Virus record (IMG/VR): IMGVR_UViG_3300050033_000162
Location: 1-26,146 of that record
Length of the DNA stretch: 26,146 bases
Reading direction: 5' to 3' (one strand)
DNA from: a virus
Part shown: positions 2,799-25,933 of the stretch, one piece after another
Layout: each line of letters opens with the position of its first letter
Position numbering within the stretch: the stretch's first letter is position 1
Translations under genes and position numbers: made by a program
Notes under the pieces: generated by a model
Databases searched by the model: none
Told to the model about the DNA's origin: nothing
Seen by the model: the letters and a program-made list of their open reading frames with translations, nothing else

Positions 2799-3074
2799 AT
2801 GGGGGGACCATCTGAACGCACAGCAAAAAACCACCAAGAGGTAATTAATCTCTACAATCAAAAGTATGAGAATGCTCGGGAAGTTTACAAAAGAGAGGGA
2901 TGGAATTTTCAAAGTTTCAAACCTGCTTCTCTTTATCAGGAGGTAGCCGACGAACTTTGCTATCAGGCTATAACTGTCCGTATCATCATAAACGGATATG
3001 GAAAAACAGTAAGACAACAACATAAGGCCGCTATATGTCGCTTATCCTTGAAGAAAACGCCCGTAGGAATCTGA
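2799..3074 (+). CDS. Small basic HTH-like protein upstream of terminase; candidate small terminase subunit
   Basis: This 91-residue basic protein has a central segment, ASLYQEVADELCYQAITVRI, that could form a helix-turn-helix (helix, AxELxYQA turn, then TVRIIING as recognition helix). Its 3' end overlaps the terminase large-subunit start by 40 nt, which suggests translational coupling. Position directly before the large subunit and a DNA-binding look fit a small terminase subunit, but it is shorter than most of these and lacks a clear oligomerisation domain. It ends with TGA, one of very few TGA stops here. The HTH protein at 24958 is a competing candidate. Confidence 0.5.
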   Translation: MGGPSERTAKNHQEVINLYNQKYENAREVYKREGWNFQSFKPASLYQEVADELCYQAITVRIIINGYGKTVRQQHKAAICRLSLKKTPVGI

Positions 3075-5068
3075 TCCTTGACGCTCCTTACAATCCCTTA
3101 ACAGGTGTAGGATCTACTTTAGACAGACAATTATTTGAATTGTCTGATCTAAACGATAAACTGTACCTTCCTAAATCTATGGTAAATGTTCCCTGGATTC
3201 AAGAATTAGGAGAAAGTAAGAGTATGGCAGAGTTTGTAAAGAAAAGTAAAAACCCAATACTCTTAAAAGCAAGCGATCCATTAGGCGTAATGAGAGACGT
3301 TTTTTTGAATGAAAGGTTAGATCAGGATTTTGAATACTGGTGTGCTTTGTGTGCGAAGATTAAGCCAAAAAAAGGCGGTGATTTCATTCCTTTTTATCTG
3401 AATTACCCTCAAAGATTATTGTGGCATGAACAGTATGAAATGCTGATTAATCTTTTGCCAATCTTCTTTATGCTGTTAAAGTCTCGTCAGTTTGGAGGAT
3501 CAACAGAAATTGACGTATTGAGCGCGTACATTCAGACCAGACTAAAAACAAACTGGAATAGTCTTATTGCGGCTCATATCAATCAGGGAGCAACAAATAT
3601 ACGTTCCATGACAACCAATCTGTTCAAGTACTATCCTCAGCATATTGATAATGTTACCCTGAAACCGTTTGAAGGAACCCACAATATCAAAATTATTCCT
3701 GAGCGAAGCAATAAAATTACAATCGGTTCTATGGAAACCCCGGACTCTATCAGAACAGATGATTTAAAGATTGCACATGTTTCAGAGTTTGGGTTAATGA
3801 AAAAAACACAAGGCAAGTCACCGGAGGACTTAATACAGTCGATTATAGGGACACTTCCAATGGATGAACCTTATACAATGTTTGCCATAGAATCAACGGC
3901 CAAAGGTGTTGGTAACGCTTTTCATCGCATGTGGCAACAATCTGTAAGGGAGGAAAACGGATTAAAAGCAATATTCATCCCGTGGCTGAAGGATGGCAAA
4001 AACAGGATTCAGTTTAAAGAGAAAGAGAACAAAGAGGAATTTGTAAAATTATTCAGTGATTACGAAAAATATCTTTGGGAAAAAGGAGCAACGCTTGAAG
4101 GAATAAAATTCTATCGCAAGCAGTTAGGATTATTCAGTGGTGACATGTGGCGTATGCAGTCAGAATTCCCTACTACTCCGGAGGAAGCTTTTCAAAGTAC
4201 GGGTAATCGATATTATCCACCTCAGTACGTTCTTGCACTTCGTCAGGATAATAAAGAACCGATTTGGAAAGGCGAAATAATGGGAGATTCAACAAAAGGG
4301 AAATTGGCACTTGAAAATTTACGATTTGTTGAAAATACTCGCGGTAATTTATGGGTGTGGGAATTTCCGGATGAATTTAACGAGTATGATTTCAGGTATG
4401 TAGTCTGCATGGATATTGGCGGTACAAATGCAAAAGCAGACTATTCTATCATTCGGGTTATTGATCGTTTACCAATGATACACGGCAAGGATTTAAAGGC
4501 AATTATGACGTGGAAAGGTCATTTAGATCAGGATTTATTGGCGTGGAAAGGTATTCAAGTATCAAAAATGTGTGACAATGCGCTTTTCACACCGGAGGAC
4601 AATAGTTTTGACAGGGATAAAGAAGAAGATGGAGAACATTTTCAGACTATTCTTTACCAGATTAAGGATGATTACAGGAATATTTATATCAGAAATGACG
4701 AAGAGAAGGTTGGCAATGATTGGATTCCAAAATACGGCTTTAACACCAACAGGAAAACAAAAGGATTGGCTGTAAACTCCCTGAAATTTGCCGCAAGGGA
4801 CCGAATGAACAGGGATATTGAGAAGCCAGACAAGTACTATGGATATATTGAACCTGACGAAAGAGTTTGCACCGAAATGGATTGTTACGAAATAAAGGCA
4901 GATGGTAAACTTGGTGCAACGGATGGAGAACATGACGATTTATTAATGGCTACAGCAATTGGTTTATACGTGGCTCTTGACATTAATAAGCTCCCATTAC
5001 CACGATTAAGGCGACAGGAAACGGTTTACAAAAAGCCCGTCCGAAGATCAGAGAGTAGTATATTTTAA
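3035..5068 (+). CDS. terL: Terminase large subunit (packaging ATPase and nuclease)
   Basis: This 677-residue motor protein would pump DNA into proheads and cut it. The ATPase domain has a non-classical Walker A, KSRQFGGST (about residues 149-157), of the K-x-RQ-x-G-x-S type seen in many terminases. A Walker B-like strand, LKIAHVSEF, ends with catalytic Glu251, and FAIESTAKG (283-291) supplies the coupling motif. The C-terminal RNase H-like nuclease shows VVCMDIGG (Asp460), an acidic pair in FTPEDN (521-522) and ATDGEHDDLLMA with Asp634/635. All expected acidic residues are present, so it looks functional. The ATG lies inside the preceding gene (40-nt overlap). It is encoded on the strand opposite to portal and capsid, which is unusual for a packaging gene. 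Confidence 0.95.
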   Translation: MSLILEENARRNLILDAPYNPLTGVGSTLDRQLFELSDLNDKLYLPKSMVNVPWIQELGESKSMAEFVKKSKNPILLKASDPLGVMRDVFLNERLDQDFEYWCALCAKIKPKKGGDFIPFYLNYPQRLLWHEQYEMLINLLPIFFMLLKSRQFGGSTEIDVLSAYIQTRLKTNWNSLIAAHINQGATNIRSMTTNLFKYYPQHIDNVTLKPFEGTHNIKIIPERSNKITIGSMETPDSIRTDDLKIAHVSEFGLMKKTQGKSPEDLIQSIIGTLPMDEPYTMFAIESTAKGVGNAFHRMWQQSVREENGLKAIFIPWLKDGKNRIQFKEKENKEEFVKLFSDYEKYLWEKGATLEGIKFYRKQLGLFSGDMWRMQSEFPTTPEEAFQSTGNRYYPPQYVLALRQDNKEPIWKGEIMGDSTKGKLALENLRFVENTRGNLWVWEFPDEFNEYDFRYVVCMDIGGTNAKADYSIIRVIDRLPMIHGKDLKAIMTWKGHLDQDLLAWKGIQVSKMCDNALFTPEDNSFDRDKEEDGEHFQTILYQIKDDYRNIYIRNDEEKVGNDWIPKYGFNTNRKTKGLAVNSLKFAARDRMNRDIEKPDKYYGYIEPDERVCTEMDCYEIKADGKLGATDGEHDDLLMATAIGLYVALDINKLPLPRLRRQETVYKKPVRRSESSIF

Positions 5069-5561: not shown

Positions 5562-5909
5562 ATGAAAATAAAACGAATCCCATATGTAATTTATGATTTT
5601 GACCTAATCATTTTCACCGGAGGAACAGAAAAGGAAATATCAAAATACCTTAAATCAATTGTTCCTGACGATGTAGAAGACGAGGTTGATGAAATTGATT
5701 TTAAAAGCAGGGGTTATACGTTTATGTTTTCATCCGGTCAAACAATTATCAGATTTGGCAAAGATTCAAATATGGGAACTGTTGCACATGAGATTTTTCA
5801 CGCAGCAGAATTTCTAATGAGAAGATTACGAATGACTCTTAGTGACGATAGTAGTGAGGCATATGCTTATTTAATTGGGTACATTACAAATCAGTATTAC
5901 CAAAAATAA
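5562..5909 (+). CDS. HExxH metallopeptidase-like phage protein (115 aa)
   Basis: Residues 72-82 include VAHEIFHAAEF, a zinc-binding HExxH motif (H76, E77, H80). It is followed 19 residues later by SSEAYAYLIGYI, where E99 is well placed as the third ligand of a gluzincin-like site. The N-terminal half is a small alpha/beta region (IPYVIYDFDLIIFTGG). At 115 residues it is close to a bare catalytic core, with no signal peptide. Such mini-peptidases occur in Bacteroidota phages and may act on a host or virion protein; the substrate is unknown. A conserved fold without protease activity cannot be excluded. It ends with TAA, 46 nt before the next gene. Confidence 0.72.
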   Translation: MKIKRIPYVIYDFDLIIFTGGTEKEISKYLKSIVPDDVEDEVDEIDFKSRGYTFMFSSGQTIIRFGKDSNMGTVAHEIFHAAEFLMRRLRMTLSDDSSEAYAYLIGYITNQYYQK

Positions 5910-5955
5910 ATTTTAACTAAAACCTTACGAGTGTATAGGTAACCGTTATTAAATT

Positions 5956-6252
5956 ATGGACAACAATAAATTATGTGTACAGGGTAGCGAAACCCAATCT
6001 TCCGAACTTGATGGCTTATTGATCAATTTTAGGAATGAACTAATATGTATGCAGTCGGTAGCCGGCTCAATTGAACGAAGCACAGCAAAAATTAAGGAAT
6101 TCAGAAATCCTGAAGTGTGCGAAAAAAGCAATTCTGTGGATCAGCCTACATGTGGAATTATTGAAAAGTTTCTTGCGCTGATTTTAGAGATGCAACAATG
6201 CAACTCTGTTTTAAGTCGGGCCGCAAACGGACTTGAAAAGTTTGTAGGATAA
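5956..6252 (+). CDS. Small helical phage protein of unknown function (98 aa)
   Basis: The protein looks all-helical. Helix 1 covers LDGLLINFRNELICMQSVAG, helix 2 SIERSTAKIKEFR, and after a short turn with two cysteines (SVDQPTCG) comes IIEKFLALILEMQQCNSVLS. The heptad-like spacing of hydrophobic residues suggests a coiled-coil or helical bundle. There is no known motif. It is the last protein gene before the noncoding tRNA-like locus. No terminator hairpin with a T-run is seen right after the stop, so read-through into that locus is possible. Confidence 0.6.
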   Translation: MDNNKLCVQGSETQSSELDGLLINFRNELICMQSVAGSIERSTAKIKEFRNPEVCEKSNSVDQPTCGIIEKFLALILEMQQCNSVLSRAANGLEKFVG

Positions 6253-6299
6253 GTAAAAAATAATCGCTTTCCACTATTGTATAATTGAAATAGATTAGT

Positions 6300-6308
6300 T
6301 ATATTTTG
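6300..6308 (+). promoter_or_regulatory. Candidate promoter box of the noncoding locus
   Basis: TATATTTTG resembles the TATATTGGG core of the plus-strand promoters and approximates the Bacteroidota -7 element. It lies 46 nt before the hairpin at 6354 and upstream of the tRNA-like elements, with no protein start between it and the terminator at 6687. AT-rich sequence makes chance occurrence plausible. Confidence 0.3.
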
Positions 6309-6353
6309 AACGGAAAGATTCATATTTTTTTAAGTTTATCGTTACAAGATTAT

Positions 6354-6380
6354 CCCGAAGGGTCAACAATCGCCTTCGGG
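6354..6380 (+). other. GC-rich hairpin at the head of the noncoding locus
   Basis: CCCGAAGG (6354-6361) pairs perfectly with CCTTCGGG (6373-6380) around an 11-nt loop. There is no T-run on either side, so it is not an intrinsic terminator. It ends 5 nt before the first tRNA-like element and could be a processing or protective 5' structure. Confidence 0.55.
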
Positions 6381-6385
6381 AAAAC

Positions 6386-6442
6386 GGGGGATAATTGGTA
6401 ATGCGGCTGACGAGACGCGGGGGTTCGATTCCCTAATCCTCC
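6386..6442 (+). pseudogene. Truncated tRNA-like element lacking D-stem and anticodon arm
   Basis: GGGGGAT (6386-6392) pairs with ATCCTCC (6435-6441; one G-T pair) as an acceptor stem, followed by A as discriminator. A T-arm is visible as GGGGG, loop TTCGATT (6424-6430) and CCCTA; three pairs are Watson-Crick. AATTGGTA (6393-6400) matches the D-loop of the intact neighbour at 6575-6582, but the 5' D-stem strand is missing. Only 18 nt remain between D-loop and T-stem instead of a full anticodon arm. At 57 nt it reads as a tRNA with internal deletions, or a tRNA mimic. No anticodon can be assigned. Confidence 0.45.
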
Positions 6443-6448
6443 ACATAT

Positions 6449-6536
6449 GGGTGAGTAGATAGGTTGCATAAAGAGGCGCAATTCTGATGCAAATTGAGTG
6501 AAATGACTATCGAGAATTCTCAATCAATCACCCTCC
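6449..6536 (+). ncRNA. Structured element with acceptor-like ends and encoded CCA
   Basis: GGGTGA (6449-6454) pairs with TCACCC (6528-6533), followed by T and CCA, like a tRNA acceptor end. Inside are alternative hairpins: CAATT/AATTG (6479-6483 with 6492-6496) around CTGATGCA, which resembles a tRNA-Ile(GAU) anticodon loop with one extra base, or TTGCAT/ATGCAA (6464-6469 with 6487-6492). A canonical T-loop is absent; instead there is the palindrome GAGAATTCTC (6512-6521). It may be a strongly diverged tRNA or another folded RNA. Confidence 0.28.
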
Positions 6537-6561
6537 ACATAATCAGCCTCAAGAGGTAACC

Positions 6562-6634
6562 GCCGGATTAGCTCAATTGGTAGAGCGCCCCTCCTTCATT
6601 GGGGTAGTTGAAGGTTCGAGTCCTTCATCTTGCT
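6562..6634 (+). tRNA. tRNA-like cloverleaf, anticodon UUC or UCA, possibly non-functional
   Basis: The 73-nt length is that of a standard tRNA. The D-arm is perfect (GCTC, loop AATTGGTA, GAGC at 6571-6586), as is the T-arm (GAAGG, loop TTCGAGT, CCTTC at 6610-6626). The acceptor stem GCCGGAT/ATCTTGC has one C-T mismatch and one G-T pair. The anticodon stem has four G-C pairs and a T-T mismatch. By standard numbering the anticodon is TTC (Glu), but position 33 would be C instead of the near-invariant U. Sliding by one base restores U33 and gives anticodon TCA, which would read UGA. No CCA is encoded. The defects suggest decay or specialisation. Confidence 0.5.
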
Positions 6635-6686
6635 CGTAGTTAGTTTTTTGTTTCCAGTAGTTAGTAGTTTTAGTTTTTTAGTTTCG

Positions 6687-6718
6687 AATCCCTCAGCCAA
6701 CACTGGGGGATTTTTTTT
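6687..6718 (+). terminator. Intrinsic terminator of the noncoding locus
   Basis: AATCCCTCAG (6687-6696) pairs with CTGGGGGATT (6703-6712) through ten pairs (one T-G) around the loop CCAACA, followed by T through 6718. The 5' arm begins inside a T-loop-like TTCGAATCCC, so the terminator may have evolved from, or arrived with, a tRNA 3' end. Confidence 0.85.
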
Positions 6719-6739
6719 GAAATTATTTTTAATTTATAG

Positions 6740-6771
6740 TTAATATATCAGATTTAATTATTATATTGGGG
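6740..6771 (+). promoter_or_regulatory. Candidate plus-strand phage promoter, copy 2 (YopX/methyltransferase operon)
   Basis: TATATTGGGG (6762-6771) has TTAA 22 nt upstream (6740-6743) and lies 26 nt before the YopX-like ATG, just after the terminator of the noncoding locus. The extended stretch TTATATTGGGG is identical to that before the second YopX gene at 25478-25488, which argues for a phage-specific promoter. Confidence 0.6.
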
Positions 6772-6796
6772 TGATTTTAATTTAAAAACTACATCT

Positions 6797-7180
6797 ATGA
6801 GCAAAGAAGCATTATTCAGAGGCAAATGTGTATTTACGGGAGTTTGGCGACATGGATTTTATTACACAAGCAAAGGCAATTCTATCATTCGTGACGCAAA
6901 CGGATCAGAAAGTATAGTAATTCCTGAGACGGTGGGGCAATCTATTGAGTCATGCGATAAGAACGGGATAATTATTTTTGAGGGAAACAACCTTAAAATA
7001 CAACTTCCTTTAGGTGGATTTTGGGGCAATGTAAAACAGGAAAAAATAGGTCTTGTAAGATTTGAACCTGATTACGGAGCGTTCATTGTAGAATGGGAAT
7101 ACTCAAAAAATCAGCACCATGTAATACTGGACTGTGATATTGCGTATGAAAGTGAGATAATTGACGCTGAACTTTACTAA
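6797..7180 (+). CDS. YopX family protein, copy 1
   Basis: The N-terminus SKEALFRGKCVFTGVWRHGF matches the YopX signature (a LFRGK-type opening, then W..G). It continues with SIVIPETVGQSIESCDKNG, the conserved VIPETVGQ...DKNG block, and IIFEGNNLKI, equivalent to the usual IYEGDIV. The typical C-terminal GNIHDNPEL block is not recognisable, so this copy is diverged at its end. YopX proteins are abundant in phages and conjugative elements; their molecular role is not established. It opens the plus-strand operon with the methyltransferases. A second YopX gene at 25508 shares both promoter and opening sequence. Confidence 0.82.
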   Translation: MSKEALFRGKCVFTGVWRHGFYYTSKGNSIIRDANGSESIVIPETVGQSIESCDKNGIIIFEGNNLKIQLPLGGFWGNVKQEKIGLVRFEPDYGAFIVEWEYSKNQHHVILDCDIAYESEIIDAELY

Positions 7181-9734: not shown

Positions 9735-11720
9735 CTACGCGGCATTTTGTCTTAATCCTTGTGAGACATTGTTCACGGTCTGCATGTTTCCTCCCACTCC
9801 TGCGGCTTGAACGTCCTGAGTAAGTCCGTTGACTGCTCCGTTCGCGTCACCACCTTGTAGCTGTTCCTGACGTTTACGAACACTGTCAAGCAACTGGCTA
9901 CTGAATGGTGCTGTTGTATTCTCCAAGAACATTGATAAATCAATCATGCCATTATTTAGAAGCGTCATTAATGTATCATCAATCATGGTTCTGTAAACCG
10001 GACTATCAGAAGTTTGACCAATCGTTAAATCGAAGTCAATATCTTTTACCTTTTCCGGATCGTACAAAACTGCAGTTTCTTTGTATGCTTTTCCTGAGAT
10101 AGCAAGCATCCGGGGTTCTGTATAATACTGCTGAATGGTTTTTAATAATGTCATATCCCTGTCGCGTATGAACAGACCGCAGAAGAAATCCATTGCATCC
10201 TTGCTGTTCATGGTGCTTTGATTGATCTGAGCATCGTAAAGTTTACCAGAGGTGCCTGATTGTGCCTGCTGTCCTTGCATGGCCGGATTAACGCCCGATA
10301 CGTCCTGAATCATCTTTAGGTACATCTGAATCATTTCAGAGATTCCAAGAGCGTTACCGCCGTTTGTTACTTCTTTCGGTGGTTTTCCTACTCCATTTGG
10401 TCCCGGATCCCAAAACATGACAGCCCCGATTTGTTTAAACTCATCCCCCAATTGTTCTTCTGATTTACCCATTGCTGTATTTACGTCATACAGGAGGGTG
10501 TTTTTAATTGAAGATGCCAGAATAGCACGTTGAAGAATTAATAAGCTATTTACCTGTTTTTGTGCATCGATCAAATCAGTTACAATACCAACAATCTTAT
10601 TATCCAAAAGAGGGTAAGGAGTAGCAATATAGGGGTGTCCTCCGTGTTCAAATGGTGTTACATCTTCACGTAAAACATGACCATAAGGAGAGTAGTAGGC
10701 ATAAAACCACTTCTGAACGTTTTCCATTTGCCCGGTAAGCATTGGTACTTCTTCCGCTGGCACTCCGGCTTCTGCATATTTTGAAACTCTAAAAGCGTTT
10801 GCCTGGTCAAGTTCTTTTTGCGTCCACTCGGTATAAAAATCAGTTCCGTTCATCCAGTCATGGACATACATTTGTTCAACCAGTCGTTGTTCCCATGTTG
10901 ATATCACCCTGCATTTTGATTGATCAAATGGGGTATAGAAGTTTTGATTGTACATTTTTTCGTCAATGTCAGTGGCAATGTAGTTATCCCTGAAATTGGC
11001 CGAATAAATCTCTTTGAGCTTGTTTTTTCGTGCGGTTGTGGTACCAAAATTAACGATCACTTCGTCCATCGTTAAGTCCATTAACCGGACTATAACCCTC
11101 ATATCATTACCCCGGACATCTTCAATGTCGTTGTTGCACGCCCATGATGTAGGGTTAACGTTTCTGATTACAACCTCTTTTTTCTTTAGTTTTGGCACGT
11201 ATTCCCAACTAATCACCTGAATGGGTAAACCGGAAATAAAGAACTCTTCCAACGCCCTTGCGTCAAGAATCTTTGAGCTGTTAACGGATGCTAAAGAGTA
11301 TTGGAGTGCATTCGATAACATTTCACTCTCTTGGCTCTTCTCTGGTGTCCGGGCAACAACTACAGATTTATTAGTATTGCTTCCGAACTGTCCTAATAAG
11401 GTACGAACTGCAGACTTGATAAGATTCTGTTTAAGGACCGGGTGACCTTTAGAAATCAAATCATCCTCTTCGGTTATCCAATTCCCGTTACCATCGTCAA
11501 TCAAATCACTATGCTGATCGTTATTGAAGAATCTCGCGGCTCTCTCGCGTGTCTTTCTGAACTCCTGAAAGCCATCATACACCTGTCGGTAATAGTCAAG
11601 TCTTTGGATGGAAAACGTCTCGTCAGAGATGGGTTTTTCCTTTACTTTAGGTTTTAAAAACCCCATATTAGACATTGTTAATCCTTTTCGGATTCCAATT
11701 GGTGCTGTTAGAGTGTCCAT
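9735..11720 (-). CDS. Portal protein
   Basis: At 661 residues this has the size of podovirus-type portals, the dodecameric channel at one capsid vertex. Early helices (residues 38-70) carry DYYRQVYDGFQEFRKTRERA. The body has HPVLKQNLIKSAVRTLLGQF and a central stretch near residues 470-490 with QDVSGVNPAMQGQQAQSGTS, a motif found in many portals (DVSGxxxxxxG...SG). Next comes YDAQINQSTMNSKDAMDFF and a Gln/Asn-rich C-terminus. It starts 3 nt after the stop of the giant gene and is the last gene of the minus-strand late operon. Normally scaffold and capsid would follow; here they lie 7.8 kb further on. Confidence 0.9.
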   Translation of the reverse strand: MDTLTAPIGIRKGLTMSNMGFLKPKVKEKPISDETFSIQRLDYYRQVYDGFQEFRKTRERAARFFNNDQHSDLIDDGNGNWITEEDDLISKGHPVLKQNLIKSAVRTLLGQFGSNTNKSVVVARTPEKSQESEMLSNALQYSLASVNSSKILDARALEEFFISGLPIQVISWEYVPKLKKKEVVIRNVNPTSWACNNDIEDVRGNDMRVIVRLMDLTMDEVIVNFGTTTARKNKLKEIYSANFRDNYIATDIDEKMYNQNFYTPFDQSKCRVISTWEQRLVEQMYVHDWMNGTDFYTEWTQKELDQANAFRVSKYAEAGVPAEEVPMLTGQMENVQKWFYAYYSPYGHVLREDVTPFEHGGHPYIATPYPLLDNKIVGIVTDLIDAQKQVNSLLILQRAILASSIKNTLLYDVNTAMGKSEEQLGDEFKQIGAVMFWDPGPNGVGKPPKEVTNGGNALGISEMIQMYLKMIQDVSGVNPAMQGQQAQSGTSGKLYDAQINQSTMNSKDAMDFFCGLFIRDRDMTLLKTIQQYYTEPRMLAISGKAYKETAVLYDPEKVKDIDFDLTIGQTSDSPVYRTMIDDTLMTLLNNGMIDLSMFLENTTAPFSSQLLDSVRKRQEQLQGGDANGAVNGLTQDVQAAGVGGNMQTVNNVSQGLRQNAA

Positions 11721-11723
11721 AGG

Positions 11724-14700
11724 TTATCTGTATTTATCTGGAAAATTAATTTCTGAATATTTTTCTGCTACTTCTTTGTAAAGGTCGTCAAGTTGTTTTT
11801 GATAATGGTCTGCTTCTGACGTATTGCCCATTTCTTTATAAAGTTCAATTGCTTTTTTTATCCTGTTGATGGCTTTACCCTGACCGTAAATATCCTGAAC
11901 GGTTTTATAAAGTGGATCATTCTGTAATTTGTCTGCCAGAACTTTATCATTTGTTCTCATTGCATCCTTAATCACTCCAATATAAATATCGGCCTTAGTG
12001 GTTATCCCTTTGGCTATTTTTGGATAATCAGTTGTTGGTTCTTTTGCACTCGCCATCTTTAAACCTAATCCGGTTGTAAGTGTCTGCCATCCGTCTTTTT
12101 CACCTTCGCCGTATTCCATTGCTCCCTGTACGCCAATAGGAAACATACTTCTTAAAGTTTCAAGACCAAAAGATGGCATTTGTGACCAGCTTAACACCTT
12201 TTCTTCACCAGGTGCTGCATACTTAGTCAACTGTCCTTCGTGCCTACCACCTTTTAAATCCCCTGCTTTAACTCCGGTTTTTTTATTGGATGTTGCATAC
12301 ATTCCCTTGTCGTCGGTTCCGGCAAGTTCGCTTGCGGTAGTATATGATTTACCCTGCCAGTTTGAACCGGTCAGTGCATTTAATGTCAATCTTGCCAATA
12401 CGCTTGATTTATTTTTAAGGAACGAGATAGGCTCAGCCACCATCTTAACGGCATCCATGAACGGGCCCAATACATTAAAATAATGCTGTTTGTCATCTGT
12501 ACCTACAAAAGCATTGTGAACGGGAGTAATGTTTGGAGCCAGCCAATTTAACCGTAATGGATTTGAAAAAGAATCTTTAAACATTCTTTTTACGGTTTGC
12601 CAATACTCTTCTTCATGGTCAGGGTCGTTAAATAAAGCCATTGCAAGGTTCATGGCTGTTGTTATGACTGCCGCCCTTAACATCAAGCCTCCCCACATTT
12701 TCATATACATTTTGTGTTCATCGGGATTAACGCCTTTAAAACCACTTCTGAACCATTCTGCCATCTTATCTATTTTAGTCACTTTATCGCCAGTCGTTGC
12801 ATCTGAAAAATCAAAATGCGTCGCCTTGAAAAAGTTTGAAAAGTTTGTTTCCGTCCAGTCCGGGGCAAAAGTCAATAAACTAAATATTCCCTGAGTTATT
12901 TTACTGCGGTGTTTTCTATCACGGTTAATGCCTCCGTAAAGGTTATTCATCAATTCTCCTACATTCTTGGCTAAAATATCAGGATCCGTATTAGGGTTGA
13001 GTTTAATTTGTCTTTGAAGTTCGGAAATACCCTGTTTAAACTTCAATCCTACGCCCATTTGTTTAAAAATCCAGTCGTTTTGTGCCTTATGAAGATTTAC
13101 AATTGCATCTTTAACGGGTCCGGCATAAGGTAATAGACTTAGTTTTTTACCCAGTTTGCTTGCCGATACTTCATTTAGTTCGTCCCATTCCTGCGTTTTC
13201 CCTACTGTCATACCTCCCCGGACAAGTTTTTCAGCCAATGGGCCAAACTCTTTGGCCATTTTAAGACCTTTTTTGTAAGATCCTACCATGTTCAAATCGC
13301 TCAGGTTTTTAACGTGTTCGGTCAGATAGTAATTCTTCATAAAGTTAAGAGGATGGAAGAAACTAAACGACAACACCGTTTGTTTTACAGCTCCGTTAAA
13401 TTGCTGCATAACCTTAAAAGGCCCCCACTTTATACCGTTTCCTAATATTGTATTTAACCTGTCGGCAATTTCAGCAGGTGCAAAAATGGCTTTTTTGACC
13501 ATTACTTTACCCTCTTTACCAATCATTACATTTTCATCCTTCAGCGGTTTTCCACTAACATTCTTAACTTTTTTAACCTTTCTCCACTTGGTGAAATTGT
13601 AGTGGTCGATCTTTTTATATCCAGGTACTCCGGCTTTGGTGGTAAACAATGGCATCCCATCGTTTCCAAATGTTTTTAATCCTTTGTCAACAAGTTTACG
13701 CCCCTCGATAGCGTTATTCATCTCAATTTTTTTGATCATAAGGCTGTTGGTTGCACCTTCTACCTTTTGAGTGAATCCGGCCTTTAAACCATCCGTAATC
13801 TTCGGGAATACTCTTTTCTTAGCATGTCCCGTTTTCTGTGAGAAATTTGTAAAATAATCAGATGGCGTAAGTTTTCCCTCCCTATTCCAGATATGGTTGA
13901 CGTGATTCTCAATTACATTATCAATCTGCCCGGCCTGAAATGATTTTAATCCTATTGCGTCATTCTGACTTTTTATCTCGTTGGCTATTTTAATCTGATC
14001 AGGCGTAAGATTACGGGCAACATCAATGATATGCTTATCGTAGTTCGTTAAATGGTCATAAGAGGTCTTTTCATCACTGTTAATATCGCTTCCGTGTTCG
14101 ATATAATGAGTGATAGCTTTGTCGATTTCCTGCCATGTTTTAGCGACACCGCCACGATGAAATGACTTCTTTATCTCTTCCTGTTGACGGGTAGCCTCTA
14201 AATTGGCTTTTGTGCTTTCAACATCGCGATTACCTAACCATTCATCTTCTGCCTGTTTGCCTATTTCTGATATTGATTTATCGCCTACATTATTACCTAA
14301 ATTTGTTAATATGGCCTTGTGTTCTTCGGGTGTTAATACCTCTTTAGCTTTACTCCATGCTTTAACTGCCTTATTATAGTCATCTTCTGTGGCAAAGTCT
14401 TTAAGTTTTGGCTTTGATTTCCTATTTTCCAATACTTTGGCTTTGGCATTCTTCAGAAAATCTTCAAGTGGTACATGAGAATCATGAACCTCGCTATTTC
14501 CAAAACTACCCTGTGGCTCCTGAAGCAATCCATTATCAAACATAGAATCAAAAGTAACAACCTTTCCTATGCTTAGATAATCCTGTAAAGCTATTTCACT
14601 CTTTTTTAAAGTGGCTTTTAAGGCTGTCAGGCCATTTACCGATTGTGTGTTATTCAAATCTACCTTTTGACCGAATAAGATTACATTTTGACCTCCGAAG

Positions 14701-17700
14701 CGTCCAGCATAGGCTTGTAGCTCTTTTGCAAGCTGTCTGACTCCTTCTCCTGTGGTAAAATCACTCGCTGAAAGATGCAAATAGGCTTTGATTTGCATTC
14801 CCCTGTCAAGGATAACGGCTGAAAGTTTTACTCCTTTGGTAAATCTTTGTTGAGAAAGGAACTGAGCAACCTCACCCGATTCAGAAACTTGCATAGGAAG
14901 TATTGCATCCTGCTTGAATACCTGCTTATCAAATTTGATTACCTTGTAATTTGATGGTGTTTTCTCGCTTGTCGGACGGTTAAGGATAAGATGATCACCT
15001 TCACCCATGCGGAAACGTGCGTATTTGCCTGTTTTAAGATTAATGATGATGTGTTCGCCCATCATATCCCCATAAGCTCCGACCGCCTGTTGGTGTATTG
15101 AAATGTCAGCCTGTGAAGGTTCAAGGCTTCCTGATGGGTGGTTGTGAATTAAGTAAACTTTGTCAGGTGAGAAACGTGTTATTGCATCGTTAAGTACTCC
15201 GTAATTCATCAAAGTTGATGATGATGTACCCATAGACAAATGAATAATCACAGGCTTACCGTCCTTTACCAGACAAGCAAACATGTTCTCAACCGATTTG
15301 TTTTCTAACTGACGGAACAGATACGCGACATCATCCGTGGATTCAATTTTGTTTTTACCGGAAAACATGAAGTTCTTGTCTGCGGTGTACTTCATTTCCA
15401 CAGATGAACGCTCTCCCTTGTTTAGTCCTCTAAGACTTGGATTGGATGATCTATCAGCTTGCCGTTGTATGTCACCGGAGTTGGCCCCGTCATTGATGGA
15501 GGAAAATGTACGGTATGGTATGGTTTCCCCTGCTTCTGTTTGGTAGGTCTTTTGGTTTTCATTGGCAGTAAAGTTATCGGAATTAACGGAATTATCAACC
15601 TTTTTTTCAGATACTTTTTCCTTTGCTTCCTTTAAAAAGTCAAGTAGGGGTTTATTGTAGGGTGAGAATTTTACAACACTTGTATTCCCATCTTCGTCAG
15701 TTATGGTATTTTCAAATTTTCCATTCCATTTATATGACTTGGTTATTTCTTTTACGTCAATCCTATTCTGATCAATCCATTCCTGAACCTCTTGTTTGGT
15801 GAGTGACTTTTTATCTTTGAATTGTTCATCAAATCCCATCCAATCTAGTTCAGCCTGCTTTGCTCCGTTTTTAAGAAGCATTGCTTTGAATTGGTCTGTT
15901 GTGCCTTTTTCTTGTTGAATTCTGGTTAATGCTTTTTCAACTGTTGAATAGAATCCTACTGGTTTTTTCTTTCCGTAAGTAGCCTCTGGCTCATTCAAAA
16001 TATTATTGCCTGACTTATTCCCTTCCACCTTCTCTTTTGCTTCTTTCAAAACATCTTCAAGAGGCTTAAGAGGTTGTTTTTCCGTTACGGGATTATCTTC
16101 TTGTTTTACTTTAACGTCTGAAAGTAAATTAGTGTCGTTTGCTATTTTACTTTCGGCTTTCTTCTCTTCTACTGCTTTTTTTGCGTTGGATAATACTTCG
16201 GAGAGAGGAAGAGACTTTGATATCCCAATTGCCTCATGTAGCTTATCTAACTTTTCTTGTTTTTCAACCTCTTTTTTTGATTTTGCCTCATTCCTGACTT
16301 TAGATAAATCAATCAAATCTTTTACCTCAAAACCTGCAAGTTGAATTGTTTTACTTATCTCAATTTGTTGGCCTAAATTTGAGTTGTCATAAATGGTTTG
16401 TAATTGACCAGAATTAGCTAATTCTTTGATATAGTCAGGGTACGAATCGGACAATTCATTAAACTTGCTGTTGTATTCGTCTGAATCTTCAAATTCCTGT
16501 TTATCTAATCCTTTTTCTGACACATATTTATCAATGCCGGATTCAATAAACGAAGATTCTCCCAACACTCCTACAGAATTTAGGGTATTTTCATTGATTC
16601 TTTTTTCCTTCGTAAATCCTAAGTCGATTATCTCAATAGCATCGTCAATTTCAGCCGTTAAATCAATTATTACTTGTTCGGCTTCTGCAATTTCTGTTTC
16701 TGTGCTTGCAGTTTCAGATAACTGTTCTGCGTTCTCAACCTCAGATTCGATAACTTTTGTACTTCTTGGTTTGCGTCCATTGCGTTGTTTCTTTACGTTT
16801 TGGTTAAAATTAGTAATTATTCCGTTAATTCCCTTCGTCTTTTCAGCTCCCTTTTCAACTCCTGTATTACTACTGTTGGGTGACAGTTCTGTTGCTGACT
16901 GATCAGAAGAACTAACCTTATCACTGTTTCCTTGTTCTGCAAGTGGTGTTCCATTCCCTCTATCATTGGAGGGGGTGAGGTTTGTAGGTTCTGTTCCATT
17001 GAGTTTATATTTTTTAAATCCTTCAATATCTTTTTCCGATCCCAAAATATGTATTTGGTCAGGTTCGAATACTATGTATTCTCCGTCTGATATTATTCCA
17101 TCATTTAATTTTGTTACGTCTCTGATTAATTGCTCATTACCCGATACATTACCCCATCTTAAATCTCCCTTTTCGTAATATGGATTTTGAATATCTAAAA
17201 CGCCAATTTTTAAATGGTCTCCAAGCCCCTTAATGATTTCATTTTGATCTCCGTTTGCCTCACGTACTACTTCTTCAAATCCAACTTGTGTAGCAATAGA
17301 AGTAAGATCGTCTGTTCCGAAATAAAACCCTCTTCCTAAAACTAAACTTCCTTCACCAGTGCCAATTTTATTTTTATCAAATTCATTTTTAACCCATCCA
17401 ATGTGATATACAACATCTTTTAGTCTACTATCTGGAAATATTCCATTTAAATACTCAGAATATTCTTTTGGTGTTCCAATATTGACAAGTTCAGGATTTT
17501 GTATAAAAACATTATTGACTCCTTTTGTGTGTTGTTCATTGGATTCAGGTGTTAATGGTTCAATGTTTTGCACAGTCGCAACCTCAGTGTCCGGTGAATT
17601 GGTGTCACTCGGTACGTCCGAGGTTGGCTGCGCTGTATCTTCATTTTGAACTGCTCGAATTTTTCGAGTAGTTGGAATGCTAATTTCTCCCACGGGCATC

Positions 17701-20804: not shown

Positions 20805-21995
20805 TTATTTATGTTGAAAGAATGGTGGTTTACTTACTGGTTGTGCTACCGGTGCCGTCTGCTGAACGGGTACTGCTGTTGTGGTAGGCTGTTGACCCAA
20901 ATTAAGCGTATTGTTCTGTCGTTGATGTGATTTAGCAAGATTATAACCCGTTCCTACAAGTTCTTTGTCGCCTAATTTGCTGTTGATAACTGTTTTTGGA
21001 GATTGTGTTTTGTCGGGCTGTCCAACAATATTTTTCGGATATTCGTCTGCAACAATACCGGGATATTTTTTTATAAGTTCATCCTTATTTTTTAAAGCAT
21101 AGTCTTTATAATAAGCAACCTCTTCAGGAGATAACACAGCCGGTTTACCATCATCTCCAATAATGGTCATTGGTCGATTAGCTGCTTTATCTGCTTCAGA
21201 TAATCCCATTTTAGCAACTCTGGCCCAGCCTATTTTTTGATTTTCTTTATTATTTGCGTTTCTGTCAAGTCTTTCCTGGTCTTTTTCGCTCAGACTTAGT
21301 TTGAATTTCGTCCAATCCTGCTCAGCTTTTTGTTTCTGTAGGTCTGACGATGCTTTAAGTCTTGCAGTAGCAAGGTTTTCAGCCTCTTTACGGTGTTCTT
21401 CTGATATTCCGTGAATTAAATTCTGCCTTGTAGTCTGGAAGTCTCTCAATCTCCATGCGTCATTTTCAGCATTAGATTTATCCATGATGTTTTCATACTG
21501 TTGATAAATCATAGGAGTAATACGATCCGGTTCACGTTTACGAATGTTTGCGCCAATAACAGAACCAAATAGATCAGACAGTCCACCGAATGCCTGACCA
21601 GCACTGTTTAGCTTCCCCATCCTCTGTAAACGATCAATTTTAGCCTGGTCAACTACAGGTTGTGGTTCTTTGGTTGCGTAAAGTTGTTGTATGAGTTGTT
21701 CGGCTCGTGATGGCTGCTCTACTTGAACAGGAATTACGGGAGCAGGCGCCGCCTGAGTATTTACGGTTTTATTGACATTGGGATATGTACTTTCGTTAAT
21801 AACCGGAGCAACAGGAATTACGGGAGCAGGCGCCGCCTGAGTATTTACGGTTTTATTGACATTGGGATATGTACTTTCGTTAATAACCGGAGCAACAGGA
21901 ATTGCTTCGGCCTTGACTTTGGCATCCTCCTTTACTAACTGCTCATTTATGAGTCGTTGCTTTTCAAGATCGTCACTGAAAATATTTGTTTTCAT
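20805..21995 (-). CDS. Probable internal virion or ejection-associated protein (396 aa)
   Basis: I do not recognise the family. After a charged helix (1-32) come two identical 28-residue Pro/Ala/Val repeats (about 33-88), a helix with EQLIQQLYATKEPQ, a small-residue segment (AGQAFGGLSDLFGSVIGANI, about 132-151) of a kind seen in ejected virion proteins, then long charged helices (185-280) likely to form coiled coil. The C-terminal tail is Gln/Pro/Val-rich (QQTAPVAQPVSK). Composition resembles the start of the giant protein, whose gene follows 6 nt downstream. Both may be packaged together. No enzymatic motif is visible. Confidence 0.65.
   Translation of the reverse strand: MKTNIFSDDLEKQRLINEQLVKEDAKVKAEAIPVAPVINESTYPNVNKTVNTQAAPAPVIPVAPVINESTYPNVNKTVNTQAAPAPVIPVQVEQPSRAEQLIQQLYATKEPQPVVDQAKIDRLQRMGKLNSAGQAFGGLSDLFGSVIGANIRKREPDRITPMIYQQYENIMDKSNAENDAWRLRDFQTTRQNLIHGISEEHRKEAENLATARLKASSDLQKQKAEQDWTKFKLSLSEKDQERLDRNANNKENQKIGWARVAKMGLSEADKAANRPMTIIGDDGKPAVLSPEEVAYYKDYALKNKDELIKKYPGIVADEYPKNIVGQPDKTQSPKTVINSKLGDKELVGTGYNLAKSHQRQNNTLNLGQQPTTTAVPVQQTAPVAQPVSKPPFFQHK
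21731..21898 (-). repeat. Perfect 84-bp tandem duplication in the 396-aa gene
   Basis: 21731-21814 and 21815-21898 are identical base for base by eye, and the first bases of a third copy (GGAATT) follow. The 28-codon unit encodes an exact repeat containing VINESTYPNVNKTVNTQAAP. Identity at synonymous sites points to recent duplication by slippage or recombination, so copy number may vary. Confidence 0.92.
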
Positions 21996-24957: not shown

Positions 24958-25458
24958 ATGGGAAAACCAAAATTACCGAACGCACGCAAGCTCCGGACAG
25001 TGATAACAGAGGAATTAAAGCAGGAGATAGTGAGAGATTTTCACGATTTAAAGCTCACCTTCTTGCAAATTTCCCGAAAGCGCAATCTTTGCTTCGCTGT
25101 GTGCAAGAAGATTTGTGAGCAAAACGAATACGGGTTCTGGACCAATCCCCCACGGTTAGCAGAAGGAGTAAAACACCAACCGGTTACAAAAAAACGTGAA
25201 AAACTCACGGATGAAGAGCGCAAAATGAAAGTTTCTGATGATGCTCTTGAAATTATTGAACTTGCAATGCAGGAAATGAAGAAGAAGCTGATCGCTCACG
25301 AATGTTCGGCCAATCAACTAAAGGATTTTGTCAATTCTGTTATCCCTTACATCATTAAAAAGCCTGACACTTCAAGTAAACAGGAGGACAAAGAGGACAA
25401 AATAAAGGATGATGCAAAAAAGGTTCATTCAATGTTTAAAGAATCACAAAATAATTAG
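24958..25458 (+). CDS. HTH DNA-binding protein; alternative candidate small terminase subunit
   Basis: The protein has 166 residues from the ATG (a TTG at 24934 would add 8). An N-terminal homeodomain-like HTH is suggested by VITEELKQEIVRDFHDLKLT and FLQISRKRNLCFAVCKKICE. A middle helical segment (DDALEIIELAMQEMKKKLIA, then NQLKDFVNSVIPYII) could oligomerise, and the tail is highly charged (KQEDKEDKIKDDAKK). HTH plus oligomerising helices plus charged tail is the layout of small terminase subunits, but the gene is 20 kb from terL in the window; a transcription regulator is equally possible. It is transcribed away from the late operon. Confidence 0.62.
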   Translation: MGKPKLPNARKLRTVITEELKQEIVRDFHDLKLTFLQISRKRNLCFAVCKKICEQNEYGFWTNPPRLAEGVKHQPVTKKREKLTDEERKMKVSDDALEIIELAMQEMKKKLIAHECSANQLKDFVNSVIPYIIKKPDTSSKQEDKEDKIKDDAKKVHSMFKESQNN

Positions 25459-25459
25459 T

Positions 25460-25488
25460 TTAACTCACTTATTAATATTATATTGGGG
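25460..25488 (+). promoter_or_regulatory. Candidate plus-strand phage promoter, copy 3 (second YopX gene)
   Basis: TATATTGGGG (25479-25488) with TTAA 19 nt upstream (25460-25463) lies 20 nt before the YopX ATG. The core TTATATTGGGG is identical to copy 2. It starts right after the stop of the HTH gene. Confidence 0.6.
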
Positions 25489-25507
25489 AAACAAAATCCA
25501 TAAAAAT

Positions 25508-25933
25508 ATGAAAAGAGAAATACTATTCAGGGGGAAACGAGTTGATAATGACAAGTGGATTGAAGGATATTATTGGAAAGATCATAACGGAAAACATTGC
25601 ATTACTTATTTGGGAGACGATAATTTTTTCAATGCTGAAGTTATCCCTGAAACAGTCGAACAATTATTATTTGAATTCAATAATAATAAATTTTTCAGTG
25701 GAGATATTATAGGAAACGACAGATCAAATATAAGATATGCAATTCTTTGGAATGAAGAAAGTCGATGTTTTAGTATCTTTAACAACTGGGAAATTGAAAG
25801 GATCAATGGAGATGATGAATTATTCAAAATTAATATTCTTGCAAATAAAGAATCTGTTCGTGTCAGCTTTTTGAAAAAGTACGAGCTTTATCCTGTCGGC
25901 AATATTCACGATAACCCTGAACTTATTAATTAA
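25508..25933 (+). CDS. YopX family protein, copy 2
   Basis: All signature blocks of the YopX family are present: REILFRGKRVDNDKWIEGYY at the start, AEVIPETVEQ in the middle, FFSGDIIGND (equivalent to IYEGDIV), and YELYPVGNIHDNPELIN at the end. At 141 residues it is full length. I took the ATG at 25508 because it starts exactly at the family motif and lies behind the promoter-like box; the longer frame from 25409 would run through the HTH gene. It is a paralogue of the gene at 6797. The family is common in phages and its molecular role is not established. Confidence 0.92.
   Translation: MKREILFRGKRVDNDKWIEGYYWKDHNGKHCITYLGDDNFFNAEVIPETVEQLLFEFNNNKFFSGDIIGNDRSNIRYAILWNEESRCFSIFNNWEIERINGDDELFKINILANKESVRVSFLKKYELYPVGNIHDNPELIN

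Follow-up and report, generated by a model that had tools for sequence, protein, structure and literature searches.

Phage T4 makes two stable structured RNAs that are not tRNAs, RNA C and RNA D, by co-transcription within its tRNA cluster. The tRNA-like domain of tmRNA has an acceptor stem with G3-U70, a T arm, and a D loop without a D stem, and it lacks an anticodon arm. Alanyl-tRNA synthetase (AlaRS) is able to charge minihelices, and U33 is near universal in tRNAs. As presented in PMC10485164, the G3:U70 pair is the main identity element of tRNA-Ala. In the T4-like phages described in PMC1524935, the number and kind of tRNAs vary between relatives, some of the genes are scored as pseudogenes, and promoters lie 5' to the tRNA genes. 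tRNA-dependent lysogeny has been described for temperate phages that carry one or a few tRNA genes (PMC10865867). Against defenses that cleave tRNAs, phage tRNAs have been argued to act as resistant or replacement tRNAs (PMC10264068 and PMC11555353); in the data presented in PMC11555353, the protection was lost when the anticodon or the stem-loops were changed, a result that speaks for tRNA replacement rather than for a decoy.

We analyzed a noncoding gap in a virus record of 26,146 nt, probably a fragment, which is called the window in its full length. The unit in this gap shares with the T4-like clusters described in PMC1524935 that phage-borne tRNAs vary between relatives. Unlike those clusters, it is a single short unit with a leader hairpin and a terminator, and it includes an anticodon-less tRNA-Ala piece, called element A. 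The likeness to T4 RNA C and RNA D is one of description, and element A differs from them in being plainly tRNA-Ala-derived. Element A also shares the layout of the tmRNA domain (an acceptor with G3-U70, a T arm, no D stem, and no anticodon arm). Unlike tmRNA, however, its unit has no message part or tag ORF, element A is only 58 nt long, and no tmRNA was found in 6253-6796 by ARAGORN -m. The closest long relative of the window is a viral contig, L007, whose TerL is about 50% identical. When ten related records were searched for integrases, the record of L007 had a tyrosine integrase over the cut-off, as would suit the phages of PMC10865867; unlike the phages presented there, the window is a fragment in which no integrase was seen and no attachment site was identified. 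New relative to the sequence-only reading is that element A is tRNA-Ala-derived, by its sequence signatures. Our literature search listed no paper on anticodon-less or degenerate phage tRNAs and none on T4 RNA C and RNA D, a result that describes this search and makes no claim of absence from print.

Genomic setting of the unit

The TerL gene lies at 3035-5068 of the window, and the portal gene lies at 9735-11720 on the minus strand. The named phages nearest by TerL and portal were the Bacteroides phages BKO1-TP3, BS-TP4, and BF1-TP2 (TerL identity, about 36 to 37%; portal identity, about 31%), and the window phage is apparently a podovirus-like Bacteroidetes phage. TerL and portal are 4.6 kb apart in the window versus about 0.7 kb at most in these three phages, in which ARAGORN found no tRNA across the 26-kb regions read. 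The gap at 6253-6796 (544 nt) is situated in this variable TerL-portal stretch and, as the sequence-only reading had claimed, holds no ORF of annotated size. Its features and the ORF directly 5' of it are as follows.

5956..6252, + strand: 98-aa ORF with no assigned function, directly 5' of the gap; a homologous ORF is in the same place in L007
6274..6307, + strand: putative promoter, TTG at 6277 and TATATTTT at 6300, spacer of 20; one mismatch to the Bacteroidetes consensus
6354..6380, + strand: leader hairpin, CCCGAAGG-GTCAACAATCG-CCTTCGGG; homologous hairpin at 14802-14825 of L007
6386..6443, + strand: element A, tRNA-Ala-like minihelix, acceptor GGGGGAT/ATCCTCC with G3-U70, A73, and a T arm; 26 nt between
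6449..6537, + strand: element B, doubtful tRNA relic, 6-bp helix GGGTGA/TCACCC and then T-CCA
6562..6635, + strand: element C, near-canonical tRNA, UUC in the canonical register (Glu codons), C33, T31-T39 and C3-T70 mismatches, U73
6639..6722, + strand: trailer and intrinsic terminator from a terminator scan, homologous to the L007 trailer; tRNA-like string TTCGAATCCC inside

The 98-aa ORF had no match in Pfam and PHROG searches. It was 40% identical to its L007 counterpart by BLASTP (E value of 4e-19, with L007 read from 14460, where the first codon is a stop), and the L007 contig was the sole tblastn match among the fetched loci. In the L007 homologue, at 14440-14729, an in-frame stop occurs close to the start, and the similarity extends upstream of the listed start at 14526. 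Two proteins of the window (6797-7180, directly 3' of the tRNA unit, and 25409-25933) weakly matched the YopX/phrog_98 kind. In the translation of a 396-aa protein at 20805-21995, about 29 residues are duplicated in tandem (PVAPVINESTYPNVNKTVNTQAAPAPVI).

Leader hairpin and terminator

The hairpin had been described as a perfect 8-bp one, and this proved correct, with arms at 6354-6361 and 6373-6380 and an 11-nt loop. Its counterpart in L007 resembles it in the loop and differs in the innermost pair. The local alignment of the two hairpins scored 31, which was reached by 0 of 1,000 Markov copies and by 0 of 300 in each of two further runs. The trailers aligned with a score of 38 (0 of 1,000 Markov copies; 1 of 300 and 0 of 300 with a longer target). 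The terminator claimed earlier was borne out, with 11 pairs and a T tail at 6686-6713, and it was the sole one found by the terminator scan in 5900-6900. By these alignments, the frame, i.e., the hairpin and the terminator, is homologous in two phages, those of the window and L007. Since the exact unit is common to just one relative, conservation of the frame is judged from two sequences.

The promoters proposed for the unit fared less well. The promoter-like box is one of 67 one-mismatch matches to the Bacteroidetes consensus on the plus strand of the window, and a sigma-70 scan gave 8 matches in an AT-rich stretch of 1 kb, where 3.0 were expected. The similarity of the putative promoter to L007 was not significant, because 105 of 1,000 Markov copies were as good. 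Folding energies were not unusual relative to shuffles of the same sequences, with z scores of -0.97, -0.99 (element B), and -1.09 for single elements and -0.69 for the whole unit. Because no element folds better than its shuffles, the case is built on tRNA signatures and homology and not on folding energy.

Two candidates were rejected. One was the string TTCGAATCCCTCAGCCAACA within the terminator, taken for a fourth fragment of a tRNA; it was dropped since it can be aligned with the terminator trailer of L007, and it had no exact match in the viral_contigs database. The leader hairpin was also considered as a widespread motif. Its pattern occurred in 22 stretches of viral_contigs, about the number expected by chance in a rough estimate of our own, and all except the one in the L007 contig were without an ARAGORN tRNA.

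tRNA content of related loci

A search of viral_contigs with the window TerL alone gave no match, and an alignment query gave 80 loci. From viral contigs, the alignment-based scans drew 80 loci by TerL and another 80 by portal; from bacterial genomes, they drew 80 by TerL. Among the 160 viral loci, ARAGORN found tRNAs only in L007, in L089 (a second copy from the same contig), and in L010. Four of the 80 bacterial-genome loci had tRNAs (L197, L238, L242, and L249), none of them within 4 kb downstream of TerL. The order in L007 is TerL, small ORFs, the ORF homologue, the hairpin, a tRNA-Thr, a terminator, a tRNA-like piece, a terminator, and portal. Its tRNA-Thr is intact (69.4 bits) and differs from the payload in the window. 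The tRNA of L010 is an intact tRNA-Met (64.6 bits). It is located 1.0 kb downstream of TerL and is followed by a terminator-like stem, as judged by eye. The contig with the closest TerL, L188 (70% identical), has no tRNA at the site; it carries other cargo and, by eye, a TnpB-like gene near the contig end. The site thus appears to gain and lose tRNAs, since among the surveyed loci these were found only in the L007 contig and L010 and were absent in L188.

The second tRNA-like piece of L007, at 15254-15393, has a perfect acceptor (TCAAAGT/ACTTTGA) and a T arm with 108 nt between them. It scored 9.6 against the tRNA set, the best of 400 null sequences being 8.8, and ARAGORN with introns allowed proposed a candidate Ser(gct) with a 56-nt insert.

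Given the tRNA signatures, the homology of the frame, and the different payload in the relative, all read directly from the sequences, the unit is likely to be a phage tRNA cassette that is self-contained and whose content can be exchanged, at a locus in turnover. The payload would be exchanged or decaying, because L007 keeps the hairpin and the terminator yet carries a different tRNA. The self-contained unit of tRNA pieces originally proposed is supported, and its frame has a homologue in L007; the parts that did not stand are the promoters and element B. Between the two origins put forward at the time, a tRNA array in decay, here in turnover, fits best with the intact ordinary tRNAs downstream of TerL in L007 and L010. 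The other origin, a structured RNA mimicking tRNAs, was to be abandoned by its own terms if related phages had intact ordinary tRNAs at this position, and L007 has one at exactly the corresponding place.

We infer the transcription, processing, charging, and benefit of such a cassette as follows. A transcript would start upstream and would contain the leader hairpin, the tRNA payload, and the intrinsic terminator, giving one short RNA that would be made by host RNA polymerase and trimmed by host RNases. Element C would mature into a tRNA with the anticodon UUC for GAA, and element A would be the leftover of a tRNA-Ala after the loss of the D stem and anticodon arm. Intact tRNAs at the site would likely have the usual role of phage tRNAs, supplementing or replacing host tRNAs. 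The acceptor of element A, perfect despite the lost arms, is not predicted by this account and counts against advanced decay. The unit offers a clean place to watch the gain and loss of phage tRNAs, as its frame is kept while the inner tRNA changes between relatives.

Element C

The nearly complete cloverleaf seen in the sequence was borne out when ARAGORN and Rfam were run: both called one tRNA in the unit, element C, which matched RF00005 with 54.6 bits, the gathering cut-off being 29. Its stems have 6 of 7 (acceptor), 4 of 4 (D), 4 of 5 (anticodon), and 5 of 5 (T) pairs. Among the conserved positions, U8, A14, G18, G19, A21, T54, T55, C56, A58, and C61 are present. The anticodon loop is indeed abnormal, reading CCTTCAT with C33 replacing U33, next to the T31-T39 mismatch. 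From position 34 onward, the loop is identical to that of a tRNA-Glu from a Bacteroidetes MAG, TTTTCAT; U73 and the first acceptor pairs of element C are closer to those of Gly or Thr tRNAs. GAA ranks second in the codon usage of the window (430 counts, 54 per 1,000 codons). Element C is, by these features, probably still a tRNA, but with C33 and two stem mismatches it may not work as one. The anticodon-loop string TCCTTCAT (6592) recurs in the 3' strand of the T arm (6621); an 8-mer repeat of this kind was found in 7% of Markov copies.

ARAGORN labeled element C SeC(tca). Such an anticodon would make it an opal suppressor (UCA) reading UGA, and TGA ends just 2 of the 24 ORFs of the window. 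However, tca is read in a register offset by one position, which needs a shifted anticodon stem and T37, whereas in the canonical register the anticodon is UUC, position 37 is A, and four pairs are C-G, and ARAGORN in mitochondrial mode gave Glu(ttc). TGA is also still a stop in those two ORFs, where read-through would add merely 8 and 12 codons, and a preference for TAA fits an A+T-rich genome. We therefore consider a suppressor very unlikely.

The altered loop could also bear on defense nucleases that cleave tRNAs, for which the unit might be a decoy or a cleavage-resistant replacement, with resistance residing in the element C loop. A cleavage-resistant replacement would be consistent with C33 and the T31-T39 mismatch. 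Resistance through anticodon-loop changes in phage tRNAs is proposed in PMC10264068, and PMC11555353 presents a phage tRNA able to rescue from retron-Eco7 or PrrC. On the other hand, U33 is kept in the tRNAs of both L007 and L010, and the rescue in PMC11555353 was lost with an altered anticodon or altered stems, which speaks against a pure decoy. A decoy is not favored, since resistant or replacement tRNAs are the mechanism argued for in the published cases, and no positive evidence was found for the decoy role suggested earlier. We give the nuclease explanation as a whole little credence; the tRNA cassette in turnover accounts better for the locus.

Elements A and B

A tRNA without an anticodon arm had been reported upstream of element C, and element A corresponds to this description: it has 7 of 7 acceptor pairs, 4 of 5 T-stem pairs (G49-A65 being the mismatch), and a standard T loop, TTCGATT, while the D stem and anticodon arm are absent. 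It is not a four-arm cloverleaf with an anticodon, but its acceptor stem is paired, with G3-U70, and is followed by A73, as expected for the acceptor domain of a tRNA-Ala. The gene has ACA instead of ACCA from position 73. In Rfam, element A matched the tRNA clan (tRNA-Sec) at 18.7 bits, below the cut-off. When it was compared with 39 distinct tRNAs from the fetched loci, the two best matches were tRNA-Ala, with a score of 20.0 versus a maximum of 14.7 for 400 null sequences, and these two were also the only ones among the 39 with G3-U70. The acceptor is one base away from that of a Bacteroidetes tRNA-Ala(UGC), the change being G5-U68 to G5-C68. By these signatures, element A plainly derives from a tRNA-Ala in which the D stem is lost and little of the anticodon arm is left, and it is probably a remnant. 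A scan for anticodon-less minihelices, with criteria chosen after element A had been seen, gave a match in 0.01% (about 1 in 10,000) of Markov copies of the region and an Ala-type match in 0.005%. Element A itself was found in one contig only, and an exact DNA search of viral_contigs with its 3' end gave no match.

Element B had been described as an acceptor-ended folded element. The claim held up poorly, since 3 of 400 null sequences matched the tRNA set equally well and no similarity to the L007 unit was found.

Element A might instead be a maintained anticodon-less alanine-acceptor RNA that is charged by the host AlaRS, like the tRNA-like domain of tmRNA, and has a role outside decoding, e.g., binding EF-Tu or diverting the synthetase. 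A perfect 7-bp acceptor that keeps G3-U70 and A73 without a D stem or anticodon arm, and that stays within one base of the Bacteroidetes tRNA-Ala(UGC), would suit such an RNA, but G3-U70 and A73 would be inherited by a tRNA-Ala relic too, and the G49-A65 mismatch and ACA 3' end argue against maintenance. The minihelix scan bears on the question in both directions. Across about 4.0 Mb of related loci, including L007, L010, and L188, it found no minihelix, versus 4 in one Markov copy of these loci, and the strict pattern with A73 was found in 0 of 296 Bacteroidetes genomes; this rarity favors maintenance, while the lack of a counterpart in the related phages counts against it. Overall, we regard a maintained acceptor RNA as unlikely, and a remnant in a cassette in turnover remains our preferred explanation. 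If cells did charge element A, a tRNA synthetase would have a natural minihelix substrate encoded by a phage.

Similar minihelices in further viral contigs

A generalized anticodon-less Ala pattern matched 92 stretches in viral contigs, of which 80 were fetched. About 50 of these were rejected by eye as complete tRNA-Ser genes in which the anticodon stem imitates an acceptor. Further matches were discarded as D-arm-reduced tRNA-Ala(UGC) or, in several cases, as chance matches without a T stem. L322 was part of a complete tRNA-Tyr, and L309 was not counted as Ala-type because it has G73.

The minihelices kept, those of L349, L354, L369, and L341, all have G3-U70, A73, and 5 of 5 T-stem pairs. 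Those of L349 and L354/L369 are 49 nt long and represent two distinct versions, which are nearly identical while their flanks vary; L349 and L354 differ at two positions, both in the connecting loop. The tRNA-Gly-like neighbor of the L349 and L354 minihelices shows compensatory acceptor changes. These examples would support a maintained acceptor RNA, but they show only common tRNA-Ala features, and their contigs matched no Rfam family at an E value of 0.5. The comparison is suggestive and not proof, as a relic would look alike today. It is quite unlikely, in our judgment, that Bacteroidetes and other phages carry short anticodon-less alanine-type acceptor-T-arm RNAs that would be charged with alanine by the host and act outside decoding, the 49- to 53-nt elements of L349, L354/L369, and L341 being similar examples and element A being one set in a tRNA cassette whose content can be exchanged and which has a leader hairpin and a terminator to itself.

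The tRNA-Gly-like element and the 49-nt Ala-type minihelix lie together at 2502-2626 of L349 and, on the minus strand, at about 6061-6186 of L354 and about 6764-6889 of L369; ARAGORN and Rfam missed these elements in all three. The L354 region adjoins terminase genes, named as such by eye. The element of L341 (3973-4025, minus strand) is 53 nt long and anticodon-less, and its acceptor, with G3-U70, extends to 11 bp through the flanks. In L303, L315, L329, L337, L346, L364, L372, and L377, we observed tRNA-Ala(UGC)-like phage genes with a strongly reduced D arm, which in both cases checked (L303 and L346) lie in large tRNA arrays.
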